64,000 nt of DNA from Nocardia brasiliensis. Lineage in GTDB: Bacteria > Actinomycetota > Actinomycetes > Mycobacteriales > Mycobacteriaceae. Below the pieces are notes generated by a model that worked only from the letters and a program-made list of their open reading frames with translations, was not told where the DNA came from and made no database searches. Both the position numbers and the translations under genes were made by a program. The stretch covers positions 62,001 to 126,000 of the forward strand of contig NZ_CP046171.1 of assembly GCF_011801125.1 (NCBI RefSeq), given 5' to 3'. Of the stretch, positions 2,649 through 36,047 are shown in pieces (the first letter of the stretch is position 1; each line of letters starts with the position of its first letter).

Positions 2649-2662
2649 GAGAAGGACTCGAT

Positions 2663-3980: not shown

Positions 3981-3983
3981 ACG

Positions 3984-4687: not shown

Positions 4688-4689
4688 CC

Positions 4690-5354: not shown

Positions 5355-5427
5355 ACGCGAATTCCGTTGACCACCTGCCCCTTTCGGGTGGGGGATTTCA
5401 CGCGCACTCACGAAAGGGAGTACTGCT

Positions 5428-6243: not shown

Positions 6244-6250
6244 GACGCGG

Positions 6251-6289
6251 CCGGGCCCGGAATTCCATGGCGTGGTTCGCCGGGCCCGG
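6251..6289 (+). terminator. Stem-loop between tail tube and tail chaperone genes
   Basis: Two copies of the self-complementary 10-mer CCGGGCCCGG (6251-6260 and 6280-6289) can pair to form a strong GC stem with a 19-base loop. There is no T-tract. It lies just after the tail tube gene, a place where attenuation would favour tube over chaperone expression. Function is inferred. Confidence 0.4.
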
Positions 6290-6329
6290 TCGCACCCTCA
6301 CGAGCCACGCCGAGTAGGGAGCCACGCCC

Positions 6330-6698
6330 ATGCAGAAGCCAGCACACCCACCGACCAGCGGCTCGGGCATCTCGCCCCGGTCGGTCGTGCCGACCGAGCC
6401 CGAACTGCGCAAGGCGGCGGCCGAGCTCGGTCTCGCCGACGAGAACGGCAACTACGACCGGTCGCTGCGTAGTCGGCTCGCCGCGGCCGTCCAGCTCGCC
6501 AAGCGCGAGCAGGAGGAGGCCGCCGACCCGGCCGCGCAGTCGACCGCCCGGCAGCTCGCCCACTTTCAGGCCGACCTCATCGCCGCGGGCGTTCGCAGCG
6601 ACGGCGCATTCGAGCCGCTGCTCGTCGAGGCCGCCCGTCATCTACTCCGGTCGCAAGGTCTGCGACTCGACGAACGAGAGGAAACCACGCCATCATGA
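6330..6698 (+). CDS. Putative tail assembly-region protein
   Basis: A 122-residue, mainly helical and charged protein (RKAAAELGLADENGNYDRSL, then LAAAVQLAKREQEEAADPAA). No signal peptide or membrane segment. It precedes the frameshifted chaperone gene and overlaps it by 4 bases (ATGA). In this position phages encode either a first tail chaperone or a small unknown protein. I do not recognise the family. Confidence 0.5.
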   Translation: MQKPAHPPTSGSGISPRSVVPTEPELRKAAAELGLADENGNYDRSLRSRLAAAVQLAKREQEEAADPAAQSTARQLAHFQADLIAAGVRSDGAFEPLLVEAARHLLRSQGLRLDEREETTPS

Positions 6699-7051
6699 CC
6701 GCACCCCGCACGCCCCGCAAGGCACCCGCCAAGCGCGCCACCCCGTACAAGCCCGCCGGGGTCAAGCAGCCGCAGGACCACAAGCCGCCCGCGCAGCGTG
6801 AGGCCGACGGCGACGACGAGGTCACGGTCGAGTTCCGCGGCGAGAGCTTCACCGTGCCCGCCGACACCGACGATTGGCCGACGCTCGCACACCAGGCGCT
6901 CGGATCGAATCGCCATATCGACGGGATGGAAATCCTGCTCGGTCCGAAGCAGTGGCCGCGCCTGATCCGGCTGTGCCCCAAAAAGCGGGACTTCGAAGAG
7001 TTCTCGCAGATGCTCGCCGATGTCATGGGATTCGGCACCGCGGGAAACTGA
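6695..7051 (+). CDS. Tail assembly chaperone G-like (unshifted product)
   Basis: A 118-residue protein. A basic, Pro-rich N-terminus is followed by EVTVEFRGESFTVPADTDDW and a helical end with LIRLCPKKRDFEEFSQML. It is the short product of a programmed frameshift pair: its last two sense codons are GGA AAC, directly before TGA, and form the slippery heptamer. By analogy with lambda gpG it binds the tape measure during tail assembly and is absent from the virion. Confidence 0.75.
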   Translation: MTAPRTPRKAPAKRATPYKPAGVKQPQDHKPPAQREADGDDEVTVEFRGESFTVPADTDDWPTLAHQALGSNRHIDGMEILLGPKQWPRLIRLCPKKRDFEEFSQMLADVMGFGTAGN

Positions 7052-7479
7052 CCGCGCTGCTCGTCCTGCTCCGTGACCACGCGGGCGCCGTCGAGGCCCA
7101 CTTACGGACTCTCGGCGTCCGCTACTCGGACCGGTGGCGCCGCGACGCGGACGGGCAGCGAAAGCTCACCCTGCGCGAAATCTGGGTGCTCATCCAATAC
7201 GCGCGCCCCGACTCGCCGCTGATCCTCAAGGACGGCAAGGGCGCTCGCTGGACCGCTACCGACTATCTGCTGTCGGACGTGTGGACGGCGCTCACCGGCA
7301 AGCCACACCCGGCCCGGCCCCAGAGCGTCAAGCAGCAGGCCGCCACCGCGCAGCGCGCCGCGGCAGTGCGCCGCGTGCAACGCCAGTTCGCGGCACGCAA
7401 TCGCCAGATAGCCGCCGCCCAGCGCCCGGCCGATCCCACCCCGCCCGAGGCACGCCAACCGCACCGACCCCGAGAGTGA
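6695..7479 (+). CDS. Tail assembly chaperone GT-like fusion made by -1 frameshift
   Basis: After slipping at 7042-7048, translation continues as KLTALLVLLRDHAGAVEAHL to the stop at 7479, giving a fusion of about 260 residues. The T-part has a compact domain with LREIWVLIQYARPDSPLILK and a highly basic, Ala/Gln-rich tail (ARNRQIAAAQRPADPTPP). No good independent start exists for the T-part, supporting synthesis only by frameshift. The fusion is expected to load tail tube subunits onto the tape measure. The stop lies nine bases before the tape measure start. Confidence 0.75.
7042..7048 (+). promoter_or_regulatory. -1 ribosomal frameshift site GGGAAAC
   Basis: G_GGA_AAC in the zero frame of the chaperone gene, immediately followed by its TGA stop. 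This fits the X_XXY_YYZ rule and is close to lambda's GGGAAAG. A -1 shift reads GGG AAA CTG and continues for 143 more codons to 7479. Confidence 0.85.
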
Positions 7480-7488
7480 GGTGAGCGC

Positions 7489-10400: not shown

Positions 10401-10743
10401 CAACTGGCCGAGCAACCTCGGCAGCAGCAGCTCGTCGACGACCGGCGCCAGCTCGACCGGCGGCGACAGCAGCTCGACGGCGTACACGCCCGACGACGGC
10501 GGCACGTCCGACCAGTTCGACCAGGCCGCCGCGATCGAGGCCGCCTGGTCCAAGTTCACCGGCTCGATGGGCGACGCCGGAAACACCTTCCTGTCCGGGC
10601 AGAAATCGGCCGTCCCCGGGGTCGGCGGATACATCGACGGAACCGAGAAGCAAGTGAGCAACGTGCAGATTGTCGTCGCCGACGTATACGAGGCGATGAA
10701 CGCCTACAGCCGTGAGCAGAAGCGCCAGACGGTGGGCAAGTAG
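7489..10743 (+). CDS. Tape measure protein with NlpC/P60-like hydrolase domain
   Basis: A 1084-residue protein, the longest in the prophage part of this window. Residues about 50-140 are a charged coiled coil. Hydrophobic segments lie near 499-524 (LALIFAGVLGTVVGAITAV) and 547-570 (GLIVIAIAALVAGIVVAY). Repeated Trp-rich units read AAASWLWDTILKPYVDWF and AAASWLWDNALKPAM. Around residues 797-920 is a cysteine-peptidase-like domain with WDCSAFVGGAWAIATG and a later SHMAMTIGD histidine. A Ser/Gly-rich low-complexity stretch follows (about 930-1000). Length sets tail length; the peptidase domain probably opens peptidoglycan on infection. Confidence 0.85.
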   Translation: MAQDVIGYAALQVVPSFAGTAGNLAAGLSAPLVAAGREAGQATGRAISGGIEAAQAAVERASEALKVAREKQADSVGKVRVAEEKLAELRAKGNASASQLARAEEALATAQRNADRAARATQRAVQNVSDARAALANHTDDAVESESRFSRALNGVTSRMGPAAKGMLALGAATAGVGSAMDTVYEAMSRESLTDVLAAQLGASPELAAQYGKIAGDLYKQGLGESFADVSSAVGAVQSAFQALGAEGEASIDQVTATALNFQKVFGSDVPESVQTASQLVTNGLAKDSTEAFDLMTTAFQRVPAAMRDELPEIINEYGTHFRGLGFNGQEAFTLLVDAAQNGKWALDKTGDALKEFTLRGSDMSKASQEAYESIGLDAAVMSDAVASGGDEAQDALQRVAQGLLGIESPAERANTAVALFGTPVEDLAIDQIPQFLEALAGGSESMSGFAGAAGEMGDTVNNNTSGALERLKRGIQDGLVTGLTESAGWVEQNKTLALIFAGVLGTVVGAITAVKVATVAWNAAQTIAAGATKAWTAVQWLWNAAMSANPLGLIVIAIAALVAGIVVAYNKSETFRNIVQGAFSAIGAAASWLWDTILKPYVDWFVGNLQTAGNVASWLYTNAVKPAFDGIGAAASWLWDNALKPAMTGIVTGLGWVNDKATEVREWIVGKFTEVIDHFQNLPGSMRSAVSGLFDPIRDSFKTALNWLIEKWNNFRLSFDFNIPVVNKHVQFAIDTPDLPLFNRGGVVSGPGTGTSDSILAMVSDGEFIVRAQYAKRYRSLLESINAGTLPGYAGGGLVDIQNWARGEAGKPYQYGGTGNPSWDCSAFVGGAWAIATGKEPNRRYFNTESDFPSFGFVEGLGGPNDLSIGVMRGGGGPNSHMAMTIGDLNAESSGSDGVEVGSRAQGAADFPLQWHFPLGGNPLDGALDGSTGGGLGSGGTGGSSSSSTGDGTSGSSTRPAGNATPVWVDNWPSNLGSSSSSTTGASSTGGDSSSTAYTPDDGGTSDQFDQAAAIEAAWSKFTGSMGDAGNTFLSGQKSAVPGVGGYIDGTEKQVSNVQIVVADVYEAMNAYSREQKRQTVGK

Positions 10744-10745
10744 CC

Positions 10746-11729
10746 ATGGGCGTGCACGCCACTGTCGAGCTGTTCGGGTGCGACGACTCGTATTTCTGCC
10801 TGTCGGGCGCGGACGCCGGCAATCAGAACGTCGTACTCGGCACGAACCCGCAGGGCCTCTACGACGCCCCGGTCAAGGTCGCCATGAAGCGCGGCGCGTT
10901 CGAGGTCGGCGGCAAACCGTCCAAGGTCGACCGCCCGTACCGCGAGCTCGACCTCGGTCTCGGCGCGTTCTCGATGGAGACCGACGAGGACAAGCGCGCC
11001 GAGGAGTGGGCCGAGGTCGATTCGCGGCTACGCGGCGCGTTCGACTACGAGCTCGATCCGTGGGACCCGGACGCGAAACCTGCCCGCCTCGCGATCACCA
11101 CGGCGCGCAGCGGTACCCGCTGGCTCGATGTGCTGCTCATGGAATCGCCCATCATGGCGATGGACACCGACCCATGGGACTACGGGCACTCGCTACTGCC
11201 CGTCAAGCTCGTTGCGCCACAGCCGATGTGGTATCAGGACGACTGGACGGGCGACGATGAGCACCCGGCCGGATGGCAGATCGAGGGCGCCCCGTCCGGC
11301 GAGGGCGAGGTGTGGGTGTGCAACCCGACCGATCGGCCGATGGCGCATACGGTCGTCATCACCGGCAAGGGCCGTGCGCACATTCCCGATGTGTCATGGA
11401 CCGGGCCGAAGGGCGCCCGCGTGATCGGCGTCGATTTCCGTTCGGGCCGTGACGATTCCGACCGCGCCCTCGTCACGATCCCCATCGGCGAGGTGCACGG
11501 GTCCGGCCTCGTCGCGCACGTCGACCGGATGCGTATCCCGTGGGAAGACTTCACCGGCACGAACGTAACCGGCCTGTTCGGTGGTAACCGCCTGCTCTAC
11601 GTGATCCCGCCGTACACGCCGTGGACGGCGTTGCCGGTCGCCGCGTCCGAGATCACCTCGCCGACGTTCGGAATCCTGTTCAGGCAGCCGCGGCTCTGGT
11701 CGCGCCCGTGGGGCCTCGAGAGGTTCTGA
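10746..11729 (+). CDS. Minor tail protein, distal tail (Dit)-like
   Basis: A 327-residue protein starting two bases after the tape measure stop. It has the length and position of the distal tail protein linking tube to baseplate. Visible pattern: an N-terminal beta-rich half with DRPYRELDLGLGAFSMETDE, a middle MWYQDDWTGDD, and a C-terminal half with NPTDRPMAHTVVITGKGRAH typical of tail proteins with a second galectin-like or Ig-like fold. Assignment is by order plus general likeness. Confidence 0.65.
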   Translation: MGVHATVELFGCDDSYFCLSGADAGNQNVVLGTNPQGLYDAPVKVAMKRGAFEVGGKPSKVDRPYRELDLGLGAFSMETDEDKRAEEWAEVDSRLRGAFDYELDPWDPDAKPARLAITTARSGTRWLDVLLMESPIMAMDTDPWDYGHSLLPVKLVAPQPMWYQDDWTGDDEHPAGWQIEGAPSGEGEVWVCNPTDRPMAHTVVITGKGRAHIPDVSWTGPKGARVIGVDFRSGRDDSDRALVTIPIGEVHGSGLVAHVDRMRIPWEDFTGTNVTGLFGGNRLLYVIPPYTPWTALPVAASEITSPTFGILFRQPRLWSRPWGLERF

Positions 11730-11730
11730 C

Positions 11731-13419
11731 ATGGCCGCGATGACTGCTGACCTGCTCGCCGAGTGCGAGGCCATCTGGCAGGTCACCGAGCAACGCGAAC
11801 GGCAGCGGGCCGCGCAGCGCCTCGAGCCGCCCGAGGTGGGCATCTACGACGGCGAGATGCGCCCGCAGGGGTGGCTCGACGCCGCATACCTCGGTGATTT
11901 CGAGTGGGTCGACAACGACACCGGCGCCGGAATCACAGAGATTCCGTGGGATCACTATCTAGCGCAATGGATGTGGGACGAGCACGGCCGAATCCAGCGC
12001 GGCGAAAAGCGCGTCGTCGTGATCGTCGTCGAGTGCCGCAACGGCGCGAGGTGGTCGGGCCGCCTCGAATCCGTCTCCGCCGAGAAGCGCGAAGATGGCT
12101 CGAAAGTGCTTGTGGTCGAATGGCTTTCGGATTACGAGACGGTCAAGTGGTACACCGTTTGGTCGAACCCGTTTTTGCCCTCGATCCTGCAGTTTCCCCG
12201 GGTTTTCATGCTGGCCGGGGGCGCCCGGTGGAGCCTGCTTACCGCCCTGCACCTGCAGGTCATGCGGGAACAACAGAACTGGTGGAACCTCCCCGACGAC
12301 CCGCTCGACCCTGGCTCATGGGTACCGGCCGACGTGTCGCAGTGGTCGGTCGTCGTCAAGCCGCACTCGTTCTCCGACGACCTCGCCGACGGCATCCTGT
12401 GGTGCCTGCTCTCGTCGCGGTTCAAGAACTGGCACAACATCGCCACACCCATTCTGAATGACGCCGAGCTGTCGCTCACCTGGCGTCGGTACATGCCCGA
12501 CCTCGGCGACGAGCAGCCCATACCCGGCATGACGCTGCGGCCCGGCGCTCTCGTCATCGACATAGTCGACAAGAGCGGGTACTACAACCAGGGCACGAGC
12601 AACGGCGGCACGTTGTGGGACGGGTTGATTCGCACCGTCGCGTCGTTCGCCGCTCCCTTCATTGACCCGGTCGTGCAAGAAGTCGCCGACATCGACGAGC
12701 CGACATACAAGATCCCCGACCTACTCGGCACCTCCAAGACCACGCCGTACGTGGTGTGGCTCGAGGGCGAAGAGACCGGCATCCAGTCGAGCAAAAACAA
12801 GCGGTGGCCGTCTAAGGGTAAGCAGGTCGTCGTCGGCGGCCACAGCGCCTACGGCGTGAACGAGGCCATCTCAGCAGCCGTACAGCTATCGTTCGATCTC
12901 CTCAGTGCCGCATTGTTCATTCCGGCCGTTGGGGGTAGCGCTGATGCCCTGCTTGCGCCCCTCTACACCGACACTGTGCTTAGCTGGATGAACGTTAAGT
13001 CATTGGCGCGCAGTACAACTGACGGCTGGGCGGGCTATTTCGAGTACTTCCAAGATGGCGCCGACAGGGCGTTCACGATCGAGTCTCTACTCGTGCTCCG
13101 GGCCGGTTTCTGGGCCACTCGAACCAAGTTCGCCGCCGAGGTAAATGTCGCTGATGGTTCGCCATGGGTGATCGGCGACCAGGGCAAGGGGCACTGCTGG
13201 CTCGGCGACCGCGTCGGTTTCGGCATCCTCGGCGACCGCACCGGCCGAATTCACGTCGACCGCATCACATCAATCCGGTTGCGCTACAGCGACTCCGAGC
13301 CGCTGTCATGGATTCCCGTAATCGGCGACAACGCCGACGACAAGGACCCCGCGGTGCGCGCAATCGAGAAGCTCGAGGGCGTGTTCTCCGCGTTGCACGA
13401 CCTCGGCGTTTTCGGCTGA
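11731..13419 (+). CDS. Minor tail protein, ReqiPepy6 Gp37-like (tail hub)
   Basis: A 562-residue protein. The sequence GIYDGEMRPQGWLDAAYLGD near the start, KWYTVWSNPFLPSILQFPR around 140 and NWWNLPDDPLDPGSW around 190 fit the Gp37-like tail proteins of actinophages, which occupy the Tal/hub position after Dit. The C-terminal third has GDRVGFGILGDRTGRIHVDR. It probably forms the tail tip hub that contacts the cell envelope. It ends 35 bases before the next gene. Confidence 0.7.
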   Translation: MAAMTADLLAECEAIWQVTEQRERQRAAQRLEPPEVGIYDGEMRPQGWLDAAYLGDFEWVDNDTGAGITEIPWDHYLAQWMWDEHGRIQRGEKRVVVIVVECRNGARWSGRLESVSAEKREDGSKVLVVEWLSDYETVKWYTVWSNPFLPSILQFPRVFMLAGGARWSLLTALHLQVMREQQNWWNLPDDPLDPGSWVPADVSQWSVVVKPHSFSDDLADGILWCLLSSRFKNWHNIATPILNDAELSLTWRRYMPDLGDEQPIPGMTLRPGALVIDIVDKSGYYNQGTSNGGTLWDGLIRTVASFAAPFIDPVVQEVADIDEPTYKIPDLLGTSKTTPYVVWLEGEETGIQSSKNKRWPSKGKQVVVGGHSAYGVNEAISAAVQLSFDLLSAALFIPAVGGSADALLAPLYTDTVLSWMNVKSLARSTTDGWAGYFEYFQDGADRAFTIESLLVLRAGFWATRTKFAAEVNVADGSPWVIGDQGKGHCWLGDRVGFGILGDRTGRIHVDRITSIRLRYSDSEPLSWIPVIGDNADDKDPAVRAIEKLEGVFSALHDLGVFG

Positions 13420-13454
13420 TCCACCAACCACGCCAGCAAGTTAGGAGGCCCGCC

Positions 13455-13706
13455 GTGTCGCAGGCACAGCTCGTCTACTTCCAAGTTCCGGCCGCCCCGC
13501 CCGCCCCGCCCGGCCCGTGTCGGCCGTACGTCGAGTTGCGCTCGGCGGTCCCGCCGCCGGTCTCGGCCGCCGCGCGGTGTCTCGTCGGCGAGGTCGCGCA
13601 GTTCGACGAGTGCGAGGACGACGTCGACCCGTACTCGCAGGTCCCGGTGCGCTACCGCGGGCGCGTCATGGCCGCGCCCCTGCACGCGATTCGGCCGGTC
13701 CTGTGA
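13455..13706 (+). CDS. Small tail-region protein
   Basis: An 83-residue protein with GTG at 13455 and a strong AGGAGG at 13443-13448, which decides this start over a longer upstream frame. It is Pro-rich at the N-terminus (FQVPAAPPAPPGPCRPYVEL) and ends with VRYRGRVMAAPLHAIRPVL. No domain is recognised. It overlaps the next gene by 4 bases and belongs to the minor tail operon. Confidence 0.55.
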   Translation: MSQAQLVYFQVPAAPPAPPGPCRPYVELRSAVPPPVSAAARCLVGEVAQFDECEDDVDPYSQVPVRYRGRVMAAPLHAIRPVL

Positions 13707-14404
13707 GCGACATCGAGGACGCGCCCCCGCAGGCACCCGGCGCCGAACTGCCGACCCCGCAGCGCCGCGCGTGCACCGTGTGCGGAACTCGCCGATGCCC
13801 GTGCGAGTGGTGCCACATCGCATGTGGAATCGACCACTCGCCGCGGTTGCCGGCGAACTCGTTTCCGACCGTCGACAACTGCAATCCCGAGTGCCCGGCC
13901 GAGGCATTCTTGCCGTTCCTCGTGGGCCTGCCCGGGATGCGCGGCGCATCCATGGCCGTACCAATCTCAGGCCTGAAATCGTGGTCGGTTCGCCTGTGGA
14001 ACGGCGGCGCCCGCCGCGTCGCTGAACAGCGCGAGTTCTACTGGCCGCCTCGACAGGGCGAGATAAACCCCCTGTTCGCCGCGGGCGAGTGGAAGGACGA
14101 GCCGCCGCCAGCCGACTGGACAACCGAAGTCGACGCGCAGGCGCTCGCGAACGTGATGCAAGCCGAGCTCAGTCGCCAGCTCGAACAGCGCGAGGCCGCC
14201 GCCGAGGTCGCCCGCCCGGCCGAGGTCGCCCGCGGTTACGTCACCCGCATAACCCGATTCGACCCGACCGAACACACGGTTACCGAGGTGCTCGCCCACC
14301 TACGCACCGCGAGCGCGGCCGAGGTGCATCGCGTGATCGGCATCGAGGCCGAGACCAGCAAGCGCGCCGGAATCCTCAAGCGCTACAAGGAGAGTGGACA
14401 GTGA
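13703..14404 (+). CDS. Cys-rich (zinc-ribbon-like) tail-region protein
   Basis: A 233-residue protein, GTG at 13703 overlapping the previous stop. Residues 20-40 hold a dense cysteine cluster (CTVCGTRRCPCEWCHIACG) plus CNPECP downstream, suggesting a small zinc-binding module. The C-terminal third is a charged helix followed by HTVTEVLAHLRTASAAEVHR and AGILKRYKESGQ, a short helical motif common in phage tail-region proteins and sometimes fused to connector proteins. Function unknown. Overlaps the lysin gene by 4 bases. Confidence 0.5.
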   Translation: MSDIEDAPPQAPGAELPTPQRRACTVCGTRRCPCEWCHIACGIDHSPRLPANSFPTVDNCNPECPAEAFLPFLVGLPGMRGASMAVPISGLKSWSVRLWNGGARRVAEQREFYWPPRQGEINPLFAAGEWKDEPPPADWTTEVDAQALANVMQAELSRQLEQREAAAEVARPAEVARGYVTRITRFDPTEHTVTEVLAHLRTASAAEVHRVIGIEAETSKRAGILKRYKESGQ

Positions 14405-14988
14405 CCGAACGCATCCTTGACCACACGTACAGCCCCCAGGAAACGGGCTATTGGTGCGGCCCGGCCGCGACGCAGATCGCGCTCACCGCGCTAGGCATCG
14501 ACGTGGCCGAGCAGCAGCTCGCCGACGAGCTCGGTACCGACACGGACGGTACCGACTGGATCGGACAGATAACCGCGGTGCTCTCCCGGCGCAGCGGACA
14601 GCCATACGTCACGGTCGAGATTCCGAACGACCCGCCCACCGACGGGCAGCGCGCCCGATTGTGGGACGACATCGTAGGCAGCATCGACGGCGGTAACGCC
14701 GTGGTCGCGAACATCGTCGCCCCGCCCGGCAACCAACCGCCCGGATATCCGTCGAATCAGACGATTTGGCACTACTTTGCCATTGTCGGATACGACGACC
14801 ACACGCGCGCCGTCTACGTTGCCGACCCCGCGCGGTTCGGCGGCCTCGAGCACTACTGGCTCTCACTCGGCAAGCTGGCGAGCCTCATCACGCCCAAGGG
14901 CTACGCCGCCGCGCCGACCGCGTCCGCCGACGCCGAGGTGTGGCGCGACAACCTCGTGCAGATGCTCGGCCCGGGCGGTGCCCAATGA
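14401..14988 (+). CDS. Lysin A, C39-like peptidase part
   Basis: A 195-residue papain-like peptidase. Cys19 lies in SPQETGYWCGPAATQIAL and the likely catalytic His near residue 124 in WHYFAIVGYDD. This is the C39-type peptidase found as N-terminal domain of many actinophage lysin A proteins, where it cuts peptide stems of peptidoglycan. Here it is a separate gene. GTG at 14401 overlaps the previous stop, and its own stop overlaps the muramidase start (ATGA). Together with the next gene it forms a split lysin A. Confidence 0.8.
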   Translation: MTERILDHTYSPQETGYWCGPAATQIALTALGIDVAEQQLADELGTDTDGTDWIGQITAVLSRRSGQPYVTVEIPNDPPTDGQRARLWDDIVGSIDGGNAVVANIVAPPGNQPPGYPSNQTIWHYFAIVGYDDHTRAVYVADPARFGGLEHYWLSLGKLASLITPKGYAAAPTASADAEVWRDNLVQMLGPGGAQ

Positions 14989-15857
14989 CGGTATGGGGCG
15001 TCGATATCTCGTCGTGGCAGGCCGGTATCCGGCTCGACCGCGTCGCCGCCGAGGGATTCTCTGCCGTCATCGCCAAGGCCACGCAGGGCGACTACTACGC
15101 GAGCCCCGAGTACGCGCGGCAGAAGCTCGACGCGCTCGGCAACCGGTTGCGGTTCATGGCGTACCACTACGTCGACGGCAACACGGGCGCGGTCGAGCAG
15201 GTCGACCAGTACGAGCGCGTCGAGCCCGACCGGCGCGTGCCCGTGATGCTCGACCACGAGGACAACTCGGGCGGCGCTGACGTGCTGCGCGACGTGCACG
15301 CCGAGTTCGTGCGCCGCGGCTACGCCGTCGCGCTGATCTACATTCCGCGCTGGTACTGGGACCGCATCGGCCGCCCCGACCTATCCGGCCTGCCGCCGAT
15401 CATGGCGAGCAGCTACGGCAGCGACCAGCCCGGCTACGCCTCGTCGCTGTACCCCGGCGACGGTTCGCCCGGATGGGCGCCCTACGGCGGCAACGACGTC
15501 GCCGTACTCCAGTTCACACAACGTGCCCGCGTCGCCGGTCTGCTGATCGACGCATGGGCGTATCGCGGCACCCCCGCCGCCCTCAACGCGCTGTTCAGCG
15601 CAGGAAGTGAGGCCCCCGCCATGAGCGAGGCGAAGGACGTACAGACTCAGCTCCGCGGCCCCGACCTGAACGGATGGCCGCAGCTCGGTGACAAGACGCT
15701 CGTCGACGCGGTCGCCGATATGCGAGACCAGCTCGGCGGCCCCGACCACAATTTCGGCGGGTGGCCGCAGCTCGGCGGCCGCACGCTCGTCGATGCCGTC
15801 GCGGCGATCGGCGAGCACCTCGGCCTGCCCGGATTCGCTGCGCCTAAGGCGAAGTGA
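14985..15857 (+). CDS. Lysin A, GH25 muramidase part with C-terminal repeats
   Basis: A 290-residue protein. Residues 1-200 are a GH25 lysozyme: VWGVDISSWQ with Asp7, AKATQGDYYASPEY, YHYVDGN and the acidic cluster VMLDHED (residues 88-93) that holds the catalytic acids in the family. Residues about 220-285 contain two copies of a GWPQLG-TLVDAV unit (LNGWPQLGDKTLVDAVADM and FGGWPQLGGRTLVDAVAAI), a cell-wall binding repeat typical of actinophage lysins. It cleaves the glycan while its partner cleaves peptides. A mycolylarabinogalactan esterase (lysin B) is not visible in the window. Confidence 0.88.
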   Translation: MTVWGVDISSWQAGIRLDRVAAEGFSAVIAKATQGDYYASPEYARQKLDALGNRLRFMAYHYVDGNTGAVEQVDQYERVEPDRRVPVMLDHEDNSGGADVLRDVHAEFVRRGYAVALIYIPRWYWDRIGRPDLSGLPPIMASSYGSDQPGYASSLYPGDGSPGWAPYGGNDVAVLQFTQRARVAGLLIDAWAYRGTPAALNALFSAGSEAPAMSEAKDVQTQLRGPDLNGWPQLGDKTLVDAVADMRDQLGGPDHNFGGWPQLGGRTLVDAVAAIGEHLGLPGFAAPKAK

Positions 15858-16120
15858 TGGGGCGCCACTCGGCGCCGGACGCGCCGACGCAGGTTCGGTT
15901 CCCGTGGCGCGCAGTCACTCGCTCTGTGTTTCAGGCGGGCGTCGGTATCGCCGCCGCTATGCCGGTGATCGTCGAGTCGTCGGGCCTGTCCTCGACCGCA
16001 TGGGGCGTCGGAACGGCGATCGGCGTCTCGGCGGCCGTCACGCGCGTGATGGCTATCCCCGCGGTGAATCTGGCGCTCGCGCAGTGGGCACCGTGGTTGG
16101 CCGCCGAGCCGAGGCAGTGA
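15857..16120 (+). CDS. Holin-like membrane protein
   Basis: An 87-residue protein whose ATG overlaps the lysin stop by one base (TGATG). After a charged N-terminus it has two predicted membrane segments, around AVTRSVFQAGVGIAAAMPVI and WGVGTAIGVSAAVTRVMAI, with a short C-terminus. Two transmembrane helices, small size and position directly after lysin A fit a holin that permeabilises the membrane at lysis. The exact family is not recognised. Confidence 0.65.
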   Translation: MGRHSAPDAPTQVRFPWRAVTRSVFQAGVGIAAAMPVIVESSGLSSTAWGVGTAIGVSAAVTRVMAIPAVNLALAQWAPWLAAEPRQ

Positions 16121-16153
16121 CCGCTCATGACCTACGCAGCAGGAGGCGATGAC

Positions 16154-16498
16154 GTGCTGAGCGAGATGATCGTCGCCGCGGGCGGCGCGCTAGGTGTGGG
16201 CGGACTTGGCGGTGCGCTGGTCGGCGCGATCGTCGGCCGTCGCGGTCGCAAGGTCGACGCCCTCGAGAAGATAGAGGGCATCGCGACCCGGCTCGCCGAC
16301 AAGGCCACCGAGGCGGCCGACAAGCGGGTCGAGCAGGTCGAGGCGAAACTGTCGGCCTACGAACAGCGCGACCACGAGCGCGAACAGGCACGGCGCGTGG
16401 CGTCGATGCTGCACACGCAATGGGACATGGCAATCGCCGAGCAGGTACGTGCGCTCGGCGGCACGGTCCCGCCGCCCCCGCCGCTCGAGGTGGTGTGA
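16154..16498 (+). CDS. Second holin or membrane-anchored coiled-coil protein
   Basis: GTG at 16154 is chosen because AGGAGG at 16141-16146 is at proper spacing; an ATG at 16127 in frame lacks one. The 114-residue product has one Gly/Ala-rich membrane segment (MIVAAGGALGVGGLGGALVG) then a basic RRGRK stop-transfer and a long charged helix (ADKATEAADKRVEQVEAKLS). The C-terminus is Pro-rich. Actinophages often carry two adjacent holin-like genes; this would be the single-pass member, acting as holin or antiholin. Confidence 0.55.
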   Translation: MLSEMIVAAGGALGVGGLGGALVGAIVGRRGRKVDALEKIEGIATRLADKATEAADKRVEQVEAKLSAYEQRDHEREQARRVASMLHTQWDMAIAEQVRALGGTVPPPPPLEVV

Positions 16499-16499
16499 C

Positions 16500-17327
16500 G
16501 TGACACAGCCCGACGGCGCCGATCCGAACGGCGCGCTTAACCCCACGAAACCCGGCGCGTTCGGCGAGTTCCAGAGCCTCACCGAGGCCGACATTTTCGA
16601 CAAGCAGAAGGCGCCGATTGTCGGCACCGGCGGCTCGGCTCGCAAGGCGCAGCTCGACCTCGCCGCGGCCGACGGCAACGTGATCCCCTCCGGTACGGGT
16701 CTCTGGCAGACGTTCACTCGCAACGCCGACGCCACGTTTCCCCGGATCATGCTCGAGCCACAGCTCGACAGCAGTACCGGGTTCGACGGTAGTAGCGGGG
16801 GCAGTCACTCGCACTCGATGTCAGCGAATCGCCCGCCCGACTATCGGCCTGCGGGCAACGGCGCGAATCTCATAGAACTCGGATTCATCGAGTGCACGAA
16901 AGACCGCCGGTACGAACGGGTTACGTTCGGCACCGGTAACAGCGTGACGCTGCTCGGCATCACGGCTATGTACGTGTGTGCCTACCTCATGTCGCCCTCA
17001 ACCGGCGAGCTCGCCCTCATGGCAGCCACCGGCAACATCACCACGAGCGTTGGCGACACGAACACTGAGTACACGTTCGATCTACCCGCACCGATCGACG
17101 CGCTTAAGGCTGAGGTCTGGGCCGTCGGCGTGTTGCAGGTGACCAGCGTTACGCAAACGTGCAAAAGCATCCTGGCTAAGCGGGTCTGGGCGATGAATGC
17201 CCCGTCAGGATTCCGTCCCGCCGCCCTCTACGCAACCGCCGGTCCCTACGTCTCGCCACCCGCGACGATCGCGTACTCGTCGCTCACGTTCGGCACCGCA
17301 CGTGTGCCGTACTACGCACTCAGCTAG
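16500..17327 (+). CDS. Minor tail or baseplate surface protein
   Basis: A 275-residue protein, GTG at 16500 one base after the previous stop. The sequence is Gly/Ser/Thr-rich and beta-strand-like (NSVTLLGITAMYVCAYLM, EYTFDLPAPIDALKAEVWAV), and has a GGSHSHSM stretch that could bind metal. Such genes after the lysis cassette often encode tail fibre or base plate upper proteins. No catalytic motif is seen. Confidence 0.5.
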   Translation: MTQPDGADPNGALNPTKPGAFGEFQSLTEADIFDKQKAPIVGTGGSARKAQLDLAAADGNVIPSGTGLWQTFTRNADATFPRIMLEPQLDSSTGFDGSSGGSHSHSMSANRPPDYRPAGNGANLIELGFIECTKDRRYERVTFGTGNSVTLLGITAMYVCAYLMSPSTGELALMAATGNITTSVGDTNTEYTFDLPAPIDALKAEVWAVGVLQVTSVTQTCKSILAKRVWAMNAPSGFRPAALYATAGPYVSPPATIAYSSLTFGTARVPYYALS

Positions 17328-17338
17328 GAGGCCCCGAG

Positions 17339-17647
17339 ATGCCGATCGGATGGCGCGCGATTCGCGACGATATCGAGCTCACCCGAGGCGATTTCATCGC
17401 CTCGCGCACACACCCCGGTGGGGCACTGCCGCCCGGCACGACGGCCGAAATCGTGTGGGGCACCAAGCCATCGCCGACTACGTGGACGGCGACGGTCGAG
17501 GGCGACACAGTGTCGTGGCTCGAGCAACAAGCCGCCGTCGCACTCATCCCGGCCGGGACTCCGTTCGTGATGTGGATTCATTACCCGAATGCCGAGACGA
17601 GCAGCACTGACGATTACGAATGGGTACGCGGCGTCGCGCGCAGGTAA
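17339..17647 (+). CDS. LtfC/Gp6-like beta-sandwich phage protein
   Basis: A 102-residue protein with AGGAGG just upstream (17327-17333). The layout LTRGDFIASRTHPGG, AEIVWGTKPSPTTWTATVEGD and IPAGTPFVMWIHYPN resembles the small LtfC/p132/Gp6 beta-sandwich domain found in actinophages and some tail fibre neighbours. Probably a structural accessory protein. Assignment from pattern memory only. Confidence 0.5.
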   Translation: MPIGWRAIRDDIELTRGDFIASRTHPGGALPPGTTAEIVWGTKPSPTTWTATVEGDTVSWLEQQAAVALIPAGTPFVMWIHYPNAETSSTDDYEWVRGVARR

Positions 17648-17674
17648 TCAGTTGAGAGACAAGGGGATTCAGTC

Positions 17675-18016
17675 ATGACAGCAACGACGGCCGAGCGCAA
17701 CGCTCACGCCGAGTTCTGGGCGTCGCGCGGCAACACGTTCTCCGCGCACACCGGCGACCCCGGCGCGGCGGGCACCGCGAATGAGGTGGTCGGCGGCGGG
17801 TACTCGCGCCAGACCACGACGTGGCCGGGCTCGGCGATCGACGGCACGATCACCGGGTCTCAGCTGACGTTTCCAGTTCCGGGCGGAACCAACGTGACCC
17901 ACCTCGGCCGCTGGAACGGCAGCACTTATCTCGGCTCGATCGACTCGCCCGACGCCTCGGTGAGTCCCGCCGGCGAAATCAAGCCGACCCCGAGCTACAC
18001 CTACTCAGGCGACTAA
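17675..18016 (+). CDS. Tail fibre-like protein
   Basis: A 113-residue protein with a helix at the start (ERNAHAEFWASRGN), then a beta-rich body with GGGYSRQTTTWPGSAIDGTI and VTHLGRWNGSTYLGSIDSP, ending PTPSYTYSGD. This is the pattern of short phage tail fibre proteins of actinophages, built for surface presentation. Its TAA is immediately followed by the ATG of the next gene, so the two are coupled. Confidence 0.6.
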   Translation: MTATTAERNAHAEFWASRGNTFSAHTGDPGAAGTANEVVGGGYSRQTTTWPGSAIDGTITGSQLTFPVPGGTNVTHLGRWNGSTYLGSIDSPDASVSPAGEIKPTPSYTYSGD

Positions 18017-25938: not shown

Positions 25939-26738
25939 CTATCGGGTTCGATTGCTGAGTCGTCGCCAGCAGATCAGTGCTGCGGCGAGGTCGAGGAATC
26001 CGTGGTGGATGTCGGTGCGGCGTTCCCATCGGATGGCCAGTCGCCGGTACTGGTGCAGCAGGGCGAAAGTTTGCTCAACGATCCAGCGCCCGGCGGTGAC
26101 CTTGTCGCGGGTGCCGCGGCGGGCGATGTAGCCGGTGATATGTCGTTGCCGCAGTTCGGCATACACGCTGGGATAGTCGTATCCCTTGTCGGCGATCAGG
26201 GTGGTGATCCGGCGCCGAGGTCGGCCCGCACGCCCACGCAGGGGGCGAACCCGATCGAGCAGTGTGGGCAACATCAGGTGATCGTTGACGTTGGCCGCAG
26301 ACAACGTCAACGCGAGCGGGAATCCGTTCGCGCAGGTCAGGATGTGGTGCTTGGTCCCGGTCTTGGCGCGGTCGACCGGGCTCGGACCTGTTGCAGCGCC
26401 CCTTTTTTCGCCCGCACGTGCGAGCCGTCGACCATGACCCGGTCGAAGTCGATCAGCCTGGCGGCATGGGCGCGGGCGAGCACGGCCTGATGGATCTGCT
26501 CGAACACCCCGGCCGCTTGCCAGTCCCGCAACCTGCGCCAACAGGTCATCCCGGACCCGAACCCCAACTCCTGGGGCAGGTCCTCCCATCCGATCCCGGT
26601 GATCAGCACGAACAAGATCCCCTGCAGCACCAGACGGGAGTCCATCCGTGGCGGTCCCGGCGCCCCGGTCGGCTTCACCGGGAGTAGCGGTTCGATTACT
26701 GCCCACAACTCGTCATCCACGATCCATGGTGCTGCCAC
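25939..26738 (-). CDS. IS5-family transposase made by -1 frameshift (OrfA plus OrfB)
   Basis: OrfA starts at 26738 (MAAPWIVDDELWAVIEPLLP) and ends at 26337 in its own frame; OrfB continues in the -1 frame to 25939. OrfA holds the DUF4096-like DNA-binding part and the first catalytic Asp in VMVDGSHVRAKKG. OrfB holds TGPSPVDRAKTGTKHH, the second Asp in ADKGYDYPSVYAEL and the Glu in WIVEQTFALLHQYRRL. Together they restore the full DDE enzyme of about 265 residues. The frame switch falls at a run of six A on the coding strand. Confidence 0.85.
26403..26408 (-). promoter_or_regulatory. Transposase frameshift slippery run
   Basis: On the coding strand GCG AAA AAA GGG gives six A then G. A -1 slip changes GGG GCG into AGG GGC and joins VRAKK to RGAATGPSPVDR, restoring the conserved family sequence. 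Same type of slip site as in other two-frame IS5 elements. Confidence 0.8.
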
Positions 26739-31438: not shown

Positions 31439-32848
31439 ATGCGCGCCTTGCTGTTGTTTCTGGCCACCTGTCTCGTCGTGCTGTGGCCCGGCTCGGCCGC
31501 GGCGGCGGAGCCGTGGGGGCCGCTCGCCCCCGCCAACCCGTATCTCGGCCCGCTCGGCACCGCGACCATGCACGGCGACGCGGGCTCCTCCGATGTCACG
31601 CCGCTGGCCGGGCCGGGCTCGGCGGCGGTGCCGGTGGCCGGATATCCGCTGCTCGCTGCCTGTCCGACGCTGCTGGAAGGTGCGGACAACCTGGTTGTCG
31701 CGCTGTGCACGGCGATCGCCGGACAGGTGCCGACGGTGCATCTGATCGATCCGGCGACTCCGGGACCGATCGGGCACTCGCTCGCCGCGCTTCCGCTGAC
31801 CAAGGGCAGTCTGCTCGGCGGCGTCTACGCCTACCTGGACAACGCGGATCGACTTGTCGTCGTGGACGGCGGCAACCGGCTGCTGCGCATCGCGCACTCC
31901 CGCGACGCGGCCGGGGCCTGGCGGTTCACCAGCGCGCTCGTTGCCGATCTGAGTGCGGCGATAGCGGTGGGGGACAACGTGACCGGGTTGGTGCCCGACT
32001 GGTCCGGCAACATCTGGTTCGCGACCGGCGACGGCGTGGTCGGGCTGGTCACGCCCGCGGGCGCGGTCGCGACGTCGTCGTTGCCCGCGGGCGAGCGGGT
32101 GGCCAACAGCATTTCCGCGGCACCGAGCGGCCGGATCGCGGTCGCGACCACCCACGCGCTCTACGAGTTGGTCGAGAGCGCGGGCCGTCCCGAGATCCGG
32201 TGGCGCGCGGCCTATGACCGTGGCTCGGCGCGCAAGCCGGGTCAGTTGAGCTGGGGGACCGGGTCGACGCCCACCTATTTCGGGCCGACCACCGGGGCCG
32301 ACTATCTGAGCATCGTCGACAACGCCGAGGACCAGGTGCACGCGCTGGTATTCCGTTCCGGCACCGGCGAGTTGGTGTGTGACCAGCCGGTGCTGGCGAA
32401 GGGCGGTGCGGGCAGCGAGAATTCGCCGATCGGCGTCGGCCGCTCGCTGTTCGTCGCGAGCACCTATGGCTATCCCTATCCCGCGGTGCCTGCGGACGCC
32501 GGGCCCGCGGTGCCGCCCACCGCGCCCTTCGCCGGCGGCATGACCCGGGTCGATGTGGCCGAAAGCGGTTGCCGCACGGTGTGGGACAACGAGGTGCGCA
32601 GTGCGGCCGTACCGCGTCTGTCCGTTCCCGACGGCGCGGTGTACACCGTGACCCGGCTGGGGCCGGACCGGACGACGCCGCTGGACGGCTACGCGTTCAC
32701 GGTGCTCGACCCGGAAACCGGCGCGGTGACCGCACGACATCCCTTGCCAGGCACGCTGATCGGCGATCCGTTGCAGACCGCGCCGCTGATCACGCACAGC
32801 GGACAGGTGTTGCAGGGCACGATCACCGGGATCCTGCGCATCGGCTGA
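31439..32848 (+). CDS. Secreted beta-propeller-like protein
   Basis: A 469-residue protein from ATG 31439. Signal peptide RALLLFLATCLVVLWPGSAAA, cut near AAAAEP. The body is built of short beta repeats such as ADRLVVVDGGNRLLRIAHSR, GNIWFATGDGVVGLVTPAG and RIAVATTHALYELVES, the look of a propeller of the NHL or YVTN type. Four Cys lie at TALCTAI-like, LVCDQPV and SGCRTVW positions. Probably envelope-associated or exported. Function unknown; nothing downstream is in an operon with it. Confidence 0.65.
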   Translation: MRALLLFLATCLVVLWPGSAAAAEPWGPLAPANPYLGPLGTATMHGDAGSSDVTPLAGPGSAAVPVAGYPLLAACPTLLEGADNLVVALCTAIAGQVPTVHLIDPATPGPIGHSLAALPLTKGSLLGGVYAYLDNADRLVVVDGGNRLLRIAHSRDAAGAWRFTSALVADLSAAIAVGDNVTGLVPDWSGNIWFATGDGVVGLVTPAGAVATSSLPAGERVANSISAAPSGRIAVATTHALYELVESAGRPEIRWRAAYDRGSARKPGQLSWGTGSTPTYFGPTTGADYLSIVDNAEDQVHALVFRSGTGELVCDQPVLAKGGAGSENSPIGVGRSLFVASTYGYPYPAVPADAGPAVPPTAPFAGGMTRVDVAESGCRTVWDNEVRSAAVPRLSVPDGAVYTVTRLGPDRTTPLDGYAFTVLDPETGAVTARHPLPGTLIGDPLQTAPLITHSGQVLQGTITGILRIG

Positions 32849-32919
32849 GTCCCGCTGCCCGCACGGATATCTCGGACGCGGTGTTTCGGATAGCGGTGTC
32901 GCACAGACCGGTTCGGTGG

Positions 32920-33448
32920 TTGTCCACATGCGCTGTGTGCGGCGCCGTCCTGTGGACAAAGCTGTGCGCTGCTCGAGGACGAGCGGGTGTGCATCGCCGG
33001 GGAAATACCAGTGCCCGCGGGTATCGGTGGGGACGGATGGGGTCCACCGCAGCTCGCTCGCACCTGTGGATGAGTCTGTGGGTTGTTTCGGGACGGACGG
33101 GCATCGTTCACCCCCGCTTTGCCGCCGCGACCTCGAGGATCATGCCGTCACGTTCCCTGAAATGCCTGGTGCCGGGCTGTGGATGAACGTGAACCCGGGT
33201 GCGGAAGCAAACTCGGAAACCGATGCCGCGGCGTCCACATTGTGGATGGCGGAGTTGGGCCGGCGTGTGGACATCGATGACGCCGCGCGTCATGCACAGC
33301 GGTGGCGACAACGCGTGCCGAACCTGTGCACAGTGGTGGAGCGAACCGCATACCCAGGCTGTGCACGGCGGGCCGGTTCGGCGCACAGCGACCGCCGACC
33401 GCCGACCAGGACAGCCCGCCGCGATGGCTCGGCACGGGGTTGTCCCCA
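32920..33448. other. Cluster of DnaA-box-like motifs in a gene-poor region
   Basis: Two perfect TTGTCCACA boxes in opposite orientation lie at 32920-32928 and 32951-32959. The core TCCACA/TGTGGA recurs at 33065, 33179, 33234, 33241 and 33266, and TTGTCCCCA at 33440. At 33234-33246 the two cores form a palindrome, TCCACATTGTGGA. No convincing gene covers 32849-34172: frames here have no recognisable domains. This is not the standard dnaA-dnaN origin. It could titrate DnaA or act as a secondary origin-like site. Confidence 0.6.
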
Positions 33449-33745
33449 GCCCACTTCCGGCGTGTCGTCTCTGCGTGTCTGGGCGGCGGAACGCTTGCCC
33501 CCGTGTCGATTTCGCGTGGTTCGCCGGGCCTGCGCCGCAGGTGAGGCGAAGATCACAGCGGCTGGGAAAGTTGCGGCCGAGGTGCTGAGCGGACGCGCTC
33601 GAGGCCGCGTGGCAACGACTCTGCGATGTCTGGTTATTCCCGATCTTGTCATGACGCATGTATGTCCATGGTCGGTTCAACTGGGTGCACGTCGTGTTAA
33701 TTACGCCGCAAACAAACCTTAAGTCGCTTTCTGTTCATCTGTTGT

Positions 33746-33990
33746 CCAGCTAACGCCAACTTCGATGATGAACGGCCAGCTCAGGCGGCTCGCGATGGAA
33801 CATCGGCCGATCTATGTCGAGCGGACAGCTAATCGTCCGGGGGAATGTTCGGGTCGCCGCGAAACGGTTGACGCGAGACCTGCGGATTCCTGGGATCGGG
33901 TGGAAATCGAACCGGCGAATCGGTCGCGGCGAGCGGCGCTACAAGTTAGCTGGAACTGTGAAAAACCATGCCCTCACACGGGTTAGCTGG
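33746..33990. repeat. GTTAGCTGG repeat elements
   Basis: GTTAGCTGG occurs at 33945-33953 and 33982-33990 on the + strand and at 33746-33754 on the - strand, with a variant ATTAGCTGT at 33825-33833 on the - strand. Four copies in 245 bases, two facing each way. They follow an AT-richer stretch (33690-33745) and the DnaA-box-like cluster. Iteron-like or regulator-binding; function unknown. Confidence 0.5.
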
Positions 33991-34064
33991 CTCGCTGCTT
34001 TATACGCTTGACATAAGCGAAGAGGGTTGCATCGCCATAACGATTGTGTAGAGTCAACGGCAAC

Positions 34065-34100
34065 GCTGGCCGCAGCTGAGCACGACTCGCTGCGGCCAGC
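34065..34100. terminator. Perfect 12-bp stem-loop upstream of the SpoIIM gene end
   Basis: GCTGGCCGCAGC and GCTGCGGCCAGC pair exactly around a 12-base loop. There is no T-tract. A TTGCAT-N16-TAGAGT promoter-like pair lies just before it (34027-34054), so it could end a very short transcript or serve the minus-strand gene that stops at 34173. Confidence 0.5.
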
Positions 34101-34172
34101 GGAACTCAAATGGGGGACATCGCAACCGATCCGTGACACGGCGTAGCTGTCGAGTGTCCGAACCCGCTTCGC

Positions 34173-35189
34173 TCAGTGTGTGCTCGCGGTTGTCTGCCCG
34201 GCACCGATCACCTCGGGACTCGGCGTCCGCGCCTCCTGTTCAGCCCTGGCCAGGACCACCCGCCGGCCCACCCCGAACACATAGACCAGGAAGAACGCCT
34301 CGGCGGTGAACCCGATGGCGATGCGCACCGGGGCGGGCAGCGGGCTCGGCGTCACGAAGCCCTCGATGCAGCCGCACACCAGCAGCACCCCGACCAGCCC
34401 GAGCGCGACCGTCGCGGTGGCCCGGCCCTGGCGCGCCACCGCTTCTATTCGGCTGAGCCGGCCCGGGTCGATCAGCGTCCAGCCCAGTTTCAGCCCCGCG
34501 CCGCCCGCGACGAAGATCGCGGTCAGCTCGAGCGTGCCGTGCGGCAGGATGAACCCGAAGAACGAGTCGAGCCGCCCGGCATCGGCCATCAGCCCGGCCG
34601 AGACGCCGAGGTTGAGCGCGTTCATGAACAGCAGGTACACCGCAGGCAGGATCAGCACGCCGGTGAACAGGGCGATCGCCGTCACCCATGCGTTGTTCGT
34701 CCACACCTGGGCGGCGAAGGCGCCCTGCGGGTGCTCGGAGTAATAGGTCTCGAACGCACCGCCGCGTGCCGTCAGGCCGCTGGTATCGGCGGGGATGCCG
34801 AGAACCGTACGCGCCGAATCGAATCGGTCCACCCAGATGGCCAGGCCCGCCGACACGAGCAGGAACACCGCCGCCACCCCGGCCCACCACGGCCAGGTCC
34901 GATACAGCGCCGCCGGAAAGCGGTGGGTGAAGAAGCGGCCGATCTCGGACCAGGTGTCGGCTCTGCTGCCGAGCACCCGCCCGCGGGCCCTGGTGAGGAT
35001 CGCGCTCAACCCGGCGATCAGCTCCGGGTCGGGACTGTGCGACTGCAACCGGGCCAGCTGCTGGGACGTGCGCCGATACAGCATGACGAGCTCGTCGGCC
35101 TCGGCGCCGGAGAGCTTGCTCCGCGACGCCAGGTGATCGAGCCGCTCCCACGCTCTGCGGTGCGCGAAACTGTATGCGTCTACGTCCAT
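34173..35189 (-). CDS. SpoIIM/DUF95-family membrane protein
   Basis: A 338-residue protein from ATG 35189 after GGGAGG. Residues 1-95 are a cytosolic helical part (YSFAHRRAWERLDHLASRS). Membrane segments are near 118-138 (WWAGVAAVFLLVSAGLAIWV), about 190-270, and 290-320 (RIAIGFTAEAFFLVYVFGVG). The PHGTLELTAIFVAGGAGLKL segment is the DUF95 signature. In mycobacteria a SpoIIM-like gene is found with RDD and moxR2-locus genes, as here. It starts 42 bases from the divergent RDD gene. Role in the complex is unknown. Confidence 0.8.
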   Translation of the reverse strand: MDVDAYSFAHRRAWERLDHLASRSKLSGAEADELVMLYRRTSQQLARLQSHSPDPELIAGLSAILTRARGRVLGSRADTWSEIGRFFTHRFPAALYRTWPWWAGVAAVFLLVSAGLAIWVDRFDSARTVLGIPADTSGLTARGGAFETYYSEHPQGAFAAQVWTNNAWVTAIALFTGVLILPAVYLLFMNALNLGVSAGLMADAGRLDSFFGFILPHGTLELTAIFVAGGAGLKLGWTLIDPGRLSRIEAVARQGRATATVALGLVGVLLVCGCIEGFVTPSPLPAPVRIAIGFTAEAFFLVYVFGVGRRVVLARAEQEARTPSPEVIGAGQTTASTH

Positions 35190-35231
35190 CGGTTGCCTCC
35201 CACTACCGCCGGTCGCAAGAATGCTATCGAC

Positions 35232-36047
35232 ATGGCTGAATTCACCACCGGCGAAGCGGTCGCGCTCGAGCTGCCGATCGCTCGGATCCCGACCAGGGCC
35301 GCCGCGTTCCTCATCGACGCGGTGGCACAGTTCACGCTGGGCTCGGTGCTGTTCGTACTGACCGTCGTGCTGCTGCTGCCCAGCGGCGCGGACACGGCCT
35401 GGCTGAGTGTCGCGGTGCTCGTCACGGTCGTGGGCGTGCTGGTGGGTTACCCGGTGCTGTGCGAAACCCTCTCGCGCGGCAGGACGCTCGGCAAGCTGCT
35501 GCTCGGCCTGCGGGTGGTGCGGGCCGATGGCGGCCCGATCGACTTCCGGCACGCGCTCACCCGCGGCCTGGCCGGCGCCATCGTGGACTTCTGGATGCTC
35601 GGAGCGCTCGGCGCCGTCGCGGTGCTCACCTCGATGTGCTCCCCGAACGCCCGCCGGGTCGGCGACGTGCTCGCGGGCACCGTGGTGGTGCATGCGCAGC
35701 GCACGCTGCCGCTGCCGTTGCTCGCGGCGGCGCCGCCGTGGCTGATGGGCTGGACGGCGCAGCTGGAGCTGGCCGGACTGCCCGACGACCTGGCACTCGC
35801 GGTCCGGCAGTACCTGAGCCGGTCGAAGACCCTGACCCCCGAGGCGCAGCACCAGCTGGGCAGCGCGCTCGTCGTCGCGGTCTGCGCGCGGTTGCAGGTG
35901 CCCCCGCCGAACGGCTACCCGCCGCTGCAGGTGCTCGGCGCGATCATCGCCGAGCGGCAACGCCGCGTGCTGCCGCCGCCGCTGTTCCCGGTGTTCCCGC
36001 CCGGACCGGTCGGGCAGCCCGCGTTTCCCGCCGTCGCGGCGCAGTGA
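35232..36047 (+). CDS. RDD-family membrane protein
   Basis: A 271-residue protein from ATG 35232. The N-terminal RDD domain (residues 20-160) shows PTRAAAFLIDAVAQFTL, ETLSRGRTLGKLLLGLRVVR and SPNARRVGDVLAGTVVV, with three membrane helices. The cytosolic C-terminal half is helical (PDDLALAVRQYLSRSKTLTP) and ends Pro-rich. Divergent from the SpoIIM gene and separated by a short gap from the convergent deaminase gene. Likely part of the moxR2-type envelope locus. Confidence 0.8.
   Translation: MAEFTTGEAVALELPIARIPTRAAAFLIDAVAQFTLGSVLFVLTVVLLLPSGADTAWLSVAVLVTVVGVLVGYPVLCETLSRGRTLGKLLLGLRVVRADGGPIDFRHALTRGLAGAIVDFWMLGALGAVAVLTSMCSPNARRVGDVLAGTVVVHAQRTLPLPLLAAAPPWLMGWTAQLELAGLPDDLALAVRQYLSRSKTLTPEAQHQLGSALVVAVCARLQVPPPNGYPPLQVLGAIIAERQRRVLPPPLFPVFPPGPVGQPAFPAVAAQ

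Follow-up and report, generated by a model that had tools for sequence, protein, structure and literature searches.

A putative DnaA-box array and a predicted one-hairpin RNA gene in an intergenic gap of Nocardia brasiliensis

The intergenic gap

The window analysed here, a stretch of 64,000 nucleotides, comprises bases 62001-126000 of the chromosome of Nocardia brasiliensis, a single contig of 7.95 Mb (C1) with dnaA at C1:922-1965. Near the middle of the window, two convergent open reading frames (ORFs) are separated by a gap that is best explained as two separate elements with very different distributions, a putative DnaA-box array and a predicted hairpin RNA gene. An earlier note on this DNA had joined the repeats and the stem-loop of the gap in one origin-like element; both belong instead with the hairpin RNA gene predicted throughout the genus. 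The gap is bounded as follows.

32849-34172: gap; the + strand ORF on its left ends at 32848 and the - strand ORF on its right at 34173
34173-35960, - strand: right-hand neighbour ORF with a SpoIIM domain (Pfam), its 3' end facing the hairpin element

A Pfam scan of five ORFs across the gap found no family above the cut-off, and four of the six gaps in a pairwise alignment with the relative L022 (about 32780-33960) were not multiples of 3. A protein-coding gene spanning the region was therefore rejected, in line with the earlier view that no gene is credible across these 1.3 kb. The AT-richer stretch described before was also recovered (53.5-62% GC in windows 33500-34199). A tRNA scan of the window found no tRNA.

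The DnaA-box array

The left part of the gap contains seven TCCACA/TGTGGA cores, starting at 32923, 32951, 33065, 33178, 33234, 33241 and 33266 (span 32923-33271). The relatives in the following lines are the ten Nocardia loci aligned with this one.

32920-33274, no strand: DnaA-box array, seven cores with two perfect facing TTGTCCACA boxes at the left end
32920-32928, + strand: perfect DnaA box TTGTCCACA, core (32923) kept in 3 of 10 aligned relatives; TTATCCACA in L022-L024
32951-32959, - strand: perfect DnaA box TTGTCCACA, core (32951) kept in 10 of 10
33065-33070, - strand: DnaA-box core within CTGTGGATGA, kept in 10 of 10
33178-33183, - strand: DnaA-box core within CTGTGGATGA, kept in 6 of 10
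33266-33274, - strand: near-consensus DnaA box ATGTCCACA, core (33266) kept in 9 of 10

Both the two perfect boxes facing each other within 40 bases and the seven cores in about 355 bases had been reported in the earlier note and were located as described. The whole chromosome holds 24 perfect TTGTCCACA boxes, and no other pair is this close; only here do two boxes form a close facing pair. Two further perfect boxes outside the window, at C1:32853 and C1:33290, are 437 bp apart. The background density of the core was measured in a sample of 1.2 Mb, made up of the 400 kb surrounding the origin and 40 further stretches of 20 kb each, which contained 378 cores, i.e. 0.315 per kb or about 0.11 per 355 bases, close to the approximately 0.1 estimated previously by hand. 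The densest 400 bp of this sample were the array itself (7 cores), followed by the oriC region behind dnaA (6 cores), where dnaN was recognised by eye.

Whether such a cluster might be a chance or compositional effect was weighed against its conservation. Two results speak for chance: of 414 hexamer pairs about as abundant as the core, 8, the TCCACA pair being one of these, reached at least 7 per 400 bp somewhere in the 400 kb around the origin, and the core was not enriched window-wide (23 seen, 21.5 expected). Clustering of the core alone is thus not unique. Conservation at aligned places is the stronger test of whether the array is more than chance. The 11 aligned Nocardia loci carried 5-7 cores each in the array, compared with 0-1 in a reversed control; the cores not listed above, 33241 and 33234, were kept in five and none of the ten relatives, respectively. 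Mean core retention in this alignment was 0.61, whereas the remaining 742 hexamers in the stretch averaged 0.187; only 15 of 20000 random position sets were equally conserved. A chance origin of the cluster therefore seems very improbable to us.

The conservation check in other Nocardia, also proposed earlier, revealed a narrow distribution, which counts against the reading proposed here for the array. Only 12 of 103 distinct Nocardia loci had at least 4 cores within 400 bp, whereas 91 had at most two, in a survey that left out duplicates (identical upstream 600 nt) and loci with less than 1300 bp upstream. The 12 consist of the 11 aligned loci and L045. On the best reading of these sequence data, the array is clade-specific and belongs to a Nocardia brasiliensis-like group. 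In L045 (genome G115), a 6-core TCCACA cluster starts approximately 1 kb upstream of the hairpin element; this locus is outside the ten best-matching relatives, and its cluster may have been gained independently.

Position relative to the origin

The array, near C1:94.9 kb, is approximately 92-93 kb from dnaA and oriC. The cumulative GC-skew minimum of the 400 kb examined was within 10 kb of dnaA, so the array does not lie beside dnaA at the GC-skew switch as expected of an oriC, and it is not the origin. The earlier note was correct in this respect. Its suggestion of a relic replicon origin was not supported. In core density the array resembles an origin, even slightly exceeding oriC (7 versus 6 cores per 400 bp), and AT-richer DNA adjoins it; nevertheless, some 85-93 kb separate it from dnaA and from the local GC-skew minimum, the array is restricted to the 12 loci mentioned above, and no initiator or helicase gene was noticed by eye among the neighbouring ORFs. 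We consequently rejected a relic or second replication origin, which is hardly probable at all. A plasmid origin was rejected as well: the one plasmid record matched (N. farcinica, 2.66 Mb) covered 11% of the query, in the hairpin block only.

The alternative suggestion of the same note, a DnaA sink or timing element, gained support as a putative role of 32920-33274, the densest stretch sampled and one that is kept in related species. As a box cluster outside oriC that is conserved in relatives (12 of 103 distinct loci), the array resembles datA. It is best read, from sequence, as an origin-side, putative DnaA-binding regulatory site.

Skew is negative at C1:45000-80000 (partly window 1-18000), between the origin and the hairpin element, and a smaller local skew minimum follows near 80 kb. 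The hairpin element is 95 kb from dnaA here and 45 kb from it in G047, a relative with a 9.4-Mb genome; this suggests that DNA was inserted or rearranged. Elsewhere in the window, at 25939-26738, are two overlapping - strand ORFs that presumably resemble a split IS5-type transposase.

The hairpin element in Nocardia

The right part of the gap holds the stem-loop, which had been called perfect and indeed has a 13-bp stem without mismatch, preceded by a putative promoter and a series of conserved blocks.

34064-34101, + strand: hairpin of the predicted RNA, 13-bp stem (arms 34064-34076/34089-34101, perfect) plus inner GAG/CTC
34102-34113, + strand: 3' tail GAACTCAAATGG of the predicted RNA; most of the aligned Nocardia copies have a similar one
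34027-34032, + strand: putative -35 TTGCAT, followed by a 16-nt spacer; TTGC invariant in 45 Nocardia sequences
34049-34054, + strand: putative -10 TAGAGT, its end 10 nt upstream of the stem base as defined by the family model
33945-33953, + strand: perfect GTTAGCTGG element, the distal one of a direct pair (37 nt) that precedes the putative promoter
33982-33990, + strand: perfect GTTAGCTGG element, proximal member of the 37-nt pair
33746-33754, - strand: perfect GTTAGCTGG element
33697-33719, + strand: conserved TTAATTACGCCGCAAACAAACCT block (aligned relatives and consensus)
33542-33557, + strand: conserved TGAGGCGAAGATCACA block (consensus of Nocardia loci)

The hairpin folds with -34.7 kcal/mol (z -6.3); the - strand folds as well (z -4.7). 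A single match to the 273 bases around the stem-loop was present in 146 of the 148 Nocardia genomes, its own included, and the two genomes without a match are 78% and 85% complete. In all 97 Nocardia genomes with dnaA and the element on one contig, the element was downstream of dnaA on the same strand, at a distance of 29.5-154 kb (median 40 kb; one circular wrap corrected). Most Nocardia loci examined carry the hairpin without any DnaA cluster. An alignment of 45 Nocardia copies had the near-invariant sequence GGTTGC...TAACG..TGTGTASAGT, followed by ten bases, the hairpin and a short tail. The exact pattern occurred in 113 stretches of a species-genome collection, and the 80 listed among these 113 were all from Nocardia.

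TASAGT was present at the same distance as in the window in 45 of 45 aligned Nocardia sequences. The claim of a putative promoter rests on this conservation, since a consensus promoter scan found no promoter here. Further upstream, a 35-locus consensus (without L113, which has too little upstream DNA) revealed other conserved blocks, located about 495, 340, 90 and 55 nt upstream of the conserved core. Among the 105 distinct Nocardia loci whose upstream DNA reaches far enough, 45 have a GCGAAGAT..CAC motif at near-constant spacing, 494-521 nt upstream of the stem; in the window, the TGAGGCGAAGATCACA block at 33542-33557 resembles what we take to be a Crp/GlxR-type site. A GTTWGC-type pair with 36-38 nt spacing occurred in 48 of 109 distinct loci (for these motif counts, duplicates were removed by the upstream 200 or 150 nt). 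We infer that this pair, formed here by GTTAGCTGG elements, may provide operator sites for the promoter of the hairpin RNA. Four such elements, two per orientation, had been proposed originally; three are perfect (33945+, 33982+, 33746-), and a fourth with at most 1 mismatch was not found within the region.

Occurrence outside Nocardia

When the family was searched with a covariance model built from the Nocardia copies, seven other genomes gave weak matches. Five of these have the hairpin upstream of gltB and two have it close to fhaA, one of the latter loci being also before gltB and directly behind a tRNA-Leu; in one, it is near neither gene. The genes gltB, fhaA, fhaB and pstP were first recognised by eye, and Pfam, run on the neighbours of L061 and L106, bore out a gltB, an fhaA and a PP2C phosphatase, one of each. 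Of the 301 family genomes, 150 matched a second model (R2), built from 27 copies, with E values up to 0.05; they represent 21 of 31 genera. Nocardia accounted for 29 of these genomes; of the other 121, 108 matched below 1e-5 and 13 more weakly. Among 298 genomes of the order, a strict hairpin core pattern occurred in nine, each of them from the family, with 2 control matches, and one of the nine (G379) had neither a tRNA nor family-like flanks.

The sequence before the hairpin was surveyed in 91 non-Nocardia genomes from 13 genera, 11 of whose loci are among the sources of model R2 and match by construction. The hairpin was directly behind tRNA-Leu(CAG) in 31 of the 91 loci and unfused in 60. 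Both forms occurred within one genus (g22, one of six fused). In the unfused loci, a TANNNT -10 hexamer ended 8, 9 or 10 nt before the stem in 58 of 60 cases, compared with 14 of 1200 upstream control windows. Transcription typically starts about 7 nt after a -10. The 5' ends left by such a start and by a cut behind the tRNA would thus differ by no more than about three bases. The element of the window itself is not directly behind a tRNA; in Nocardia, five of six source loci scanned (window excepted) had a tRNA-Leu upstream of it, at approximately 0.6 kb in three and at 1.8 and 3.9 kb in the others. In L061, L066, L070, L101 and L107, which include Nocardia loci as well as loci from other genera, the hairpin is between a pstP-fhaB-fhaA cluster plus tRNA-Leu(CAG) and spoIIM or gltB, an arrangement that is possibly the ancestral neighbourhood.

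These data bear directly on whether the hairpin is merely a transcription terminator, placed behind tRNA-Leu or, as here, between convergent genes, that yields no RNA of its own that matters. The fused position in 31 of 91 loci would fit a terminator, as would the hairpin tail of the other genera, which is T-richer (44% T in 12 nt versus 24% in the 34 nt upstream). It is countered by the -10 at fixed distance in 58 of the 60 unfused copies and by the sequence of both arms, which is kept across genera with different neighbours. As a control, we inspected 17 tRNA-Leu loci from two genera without the hairpin, 14 from a large genus that is probably Mycobacterium and 3 from another (L354 and L358-L362 excluded). 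Other sequences followed the tRNA, none with the hairpin motif, yet 9 of the 17 trailers shared a different hairpin, of the GGTCRCRRAC type (L341-L345, L347, L353, L355, L356). A trailer behind tRNA-Leu can therefore be conserved without being this RNA, which weakens the argument from sequence conservation alone and leaves the promoter argument standing. Because this control was not clean, we weighed the RNA slightly lower and the terminator higher; even so, a mere terminator appears unlikely. L227 carries a GGTCRCRRAC-type hairpin upstream of the window-type hairpin.

Covariation and strand

The alignment of 96 copies, from which 24 reverse-strand matches of the palindrome had been dropped, contained five stem pairs with changes on both sides. 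The hairpin therefore has a conserved structure with compensatory changes, as small RNA genes do. When the 12-pair stem was read on the tRNA (+) strand, leaving out model pairs 25-65 and 42-49, 37 G.U cells and no A.C cells were counted, at six positions, in an alignment that was fitted to the model and whose cells are not independent events. Over all 16 model pairs, the ratio is 38 G.U to 46 A.C cells, the 46 coming from the two pairs left out. Together, the compensatory changes and the one-sided G.U pairs support an RNA read from the + strand.

This bias also bears on whether the hairpin block acts as DNA, as a protein-binding palindrome or an origin-near site of chromosome organisation. Its single match, its origin-proximal position and constant orientation to dnaA in 97 of 97 Nocardia genomes and the conservation of both arms would suit such a site. 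However, a double-stranded site would not require 37 G.U cells against 0 A.C at six stem positions, nor a tRNA fusion or a promoter directly before the hairpin, and we consider a DNA site improbable.

Several observations weigh against the predicted RNA. The tail of the Nocardia copies is not U-rich, and the two terminator hits of the consensus scan, which was negative for a promoter at this element, were elsewhere. Two of the 60 unfused copies lack the -10. Pairing is often missing at the outermost model pair and at one inner pair, and the stem base carries a T-T mismatch in 12 of 96 rows. The fitted alignment behind the pair counts and the different hairpin shared by the 9 trailers point the same way, as does the comparison with printed transcripts given below.

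Comparison with described RNAs and DnaA loci

In an Rfam 15 search of window 32400-34600, no family reached its gathering score, mir-187 coming to 23.3 of 58 bits; in a search of seven related loci, tRNA alone did so. No paper on the hairpin was among the literature matches listed. To judge from these comparisons, the hairpin RNA family is apparently undescribed so far. The genome G047 (9,436,348 bases) is presumably that of the strain used in a small-RNA study of N. brasiliensis. As far as the accessible part of that study goes, 70 candidates were reported and 17 transcripts were printed with positions in Table 2, none of these 17 near 46 kb, the site of the element in G047 (PMC5543724).

The small RNA Ms1 is likewise conserved and intergenic in Mycobacteriales including Nocardia; in the portion of its description available, it is 200-300 nt long and encoded beside HAD hydrolase/oxidoreductase genes (PMC9130861). 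The neighbours of the hairpin are spoIIM, fhaA, tRNA-Leu or gltB instead, and identity with Ms1 as described there was rejected, the HAD hydrolase/oxidoreductase neighbourhood being absent. The nearest analogue of the tRNA-fused form (31 of 91 loci), among what the excerpted sources describe, is 3'ETS-LeuZ of E. coli, a tRNA trailer that pairs with RyhB, i.e. a terminator-bearing spacer behind tRNA-Leu that acts as an RNA (PMC6191717). In contrast to it, the hairpin also occurs without a tRNA, behind a -10 of its own, and the two are likened here by their arrangement.

For the array, the E. coli datA locus offers a comparison: according to the part of the source consulted, it too is a non-coding DnaA-box cluster outside oriC, one that acts on DnaA, and it is beside a tRNA transcription unit (PMC10950094). 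The layout of the array differs, and the window has no tRNA. A DnaA-box cluster was reportedly described in Streptomyces by Smulczyk-Krawczyszyn et al. 2006; it belongs to another bacterium and other genes and is likened here by description only.

Proposed roles

We consider it fairly probable that the gap combines a putative DnaA-binding array and a very short hairpin RNA gene as separate elements. The RNA gene would extend over about 34027-34113 on the + strand, with a product of about 45-60 nt. Its promoter would fire directly into the 13-bp hairpin, and the RNA would essentially consist of the hairpin and its tail. In the tRNA-fused form, 3' processing of tRNA-Leu(CAG) would yield nearly the same 5' end. 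That one product would be reached in two ways suggests selection for the free hairpin RNA, probably as a small regulatory or protein-binding RNA. The array at 32920-33274, for its part, would most likely bind several DnaA molecules and may lower or tune the free DnaA available to oriC, by titration or by datA-like inactivation; an array this near the origin would be doubled soon after initiation.

More tentatively, and with less confidence than in the combination of the two elements, we hypothesize a family-wide regulatory RNA, in Nocardia and related genera, that amounts to hardly more than one 13-bp hairpin and whose production has been switched between a promoter and cleavage from tRNA-Leu, with the 5' end and the sequence kept. 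In many Nocardia it would be preceded by a long conserved control region, and in the N. brasiliensis group the array, further upstream, could tie the RNA to the replication cycle.

What these sequence comparisons appear to add is the hairpin RNA family and the splitting of the gap into two differently distributed elements. To our knowledge, the means by which actinobacteria limit DnaA are still an open question, and the array, at 350 bp, is a well-delimited target for testing whether sites other than oriC control initiation. The hairpin family offers one easily deleted and easily probed predicted RNA in many genera, in which the promoter form and the tRNA-tail form constitute a natural experiment that would separate RNA function from termination.
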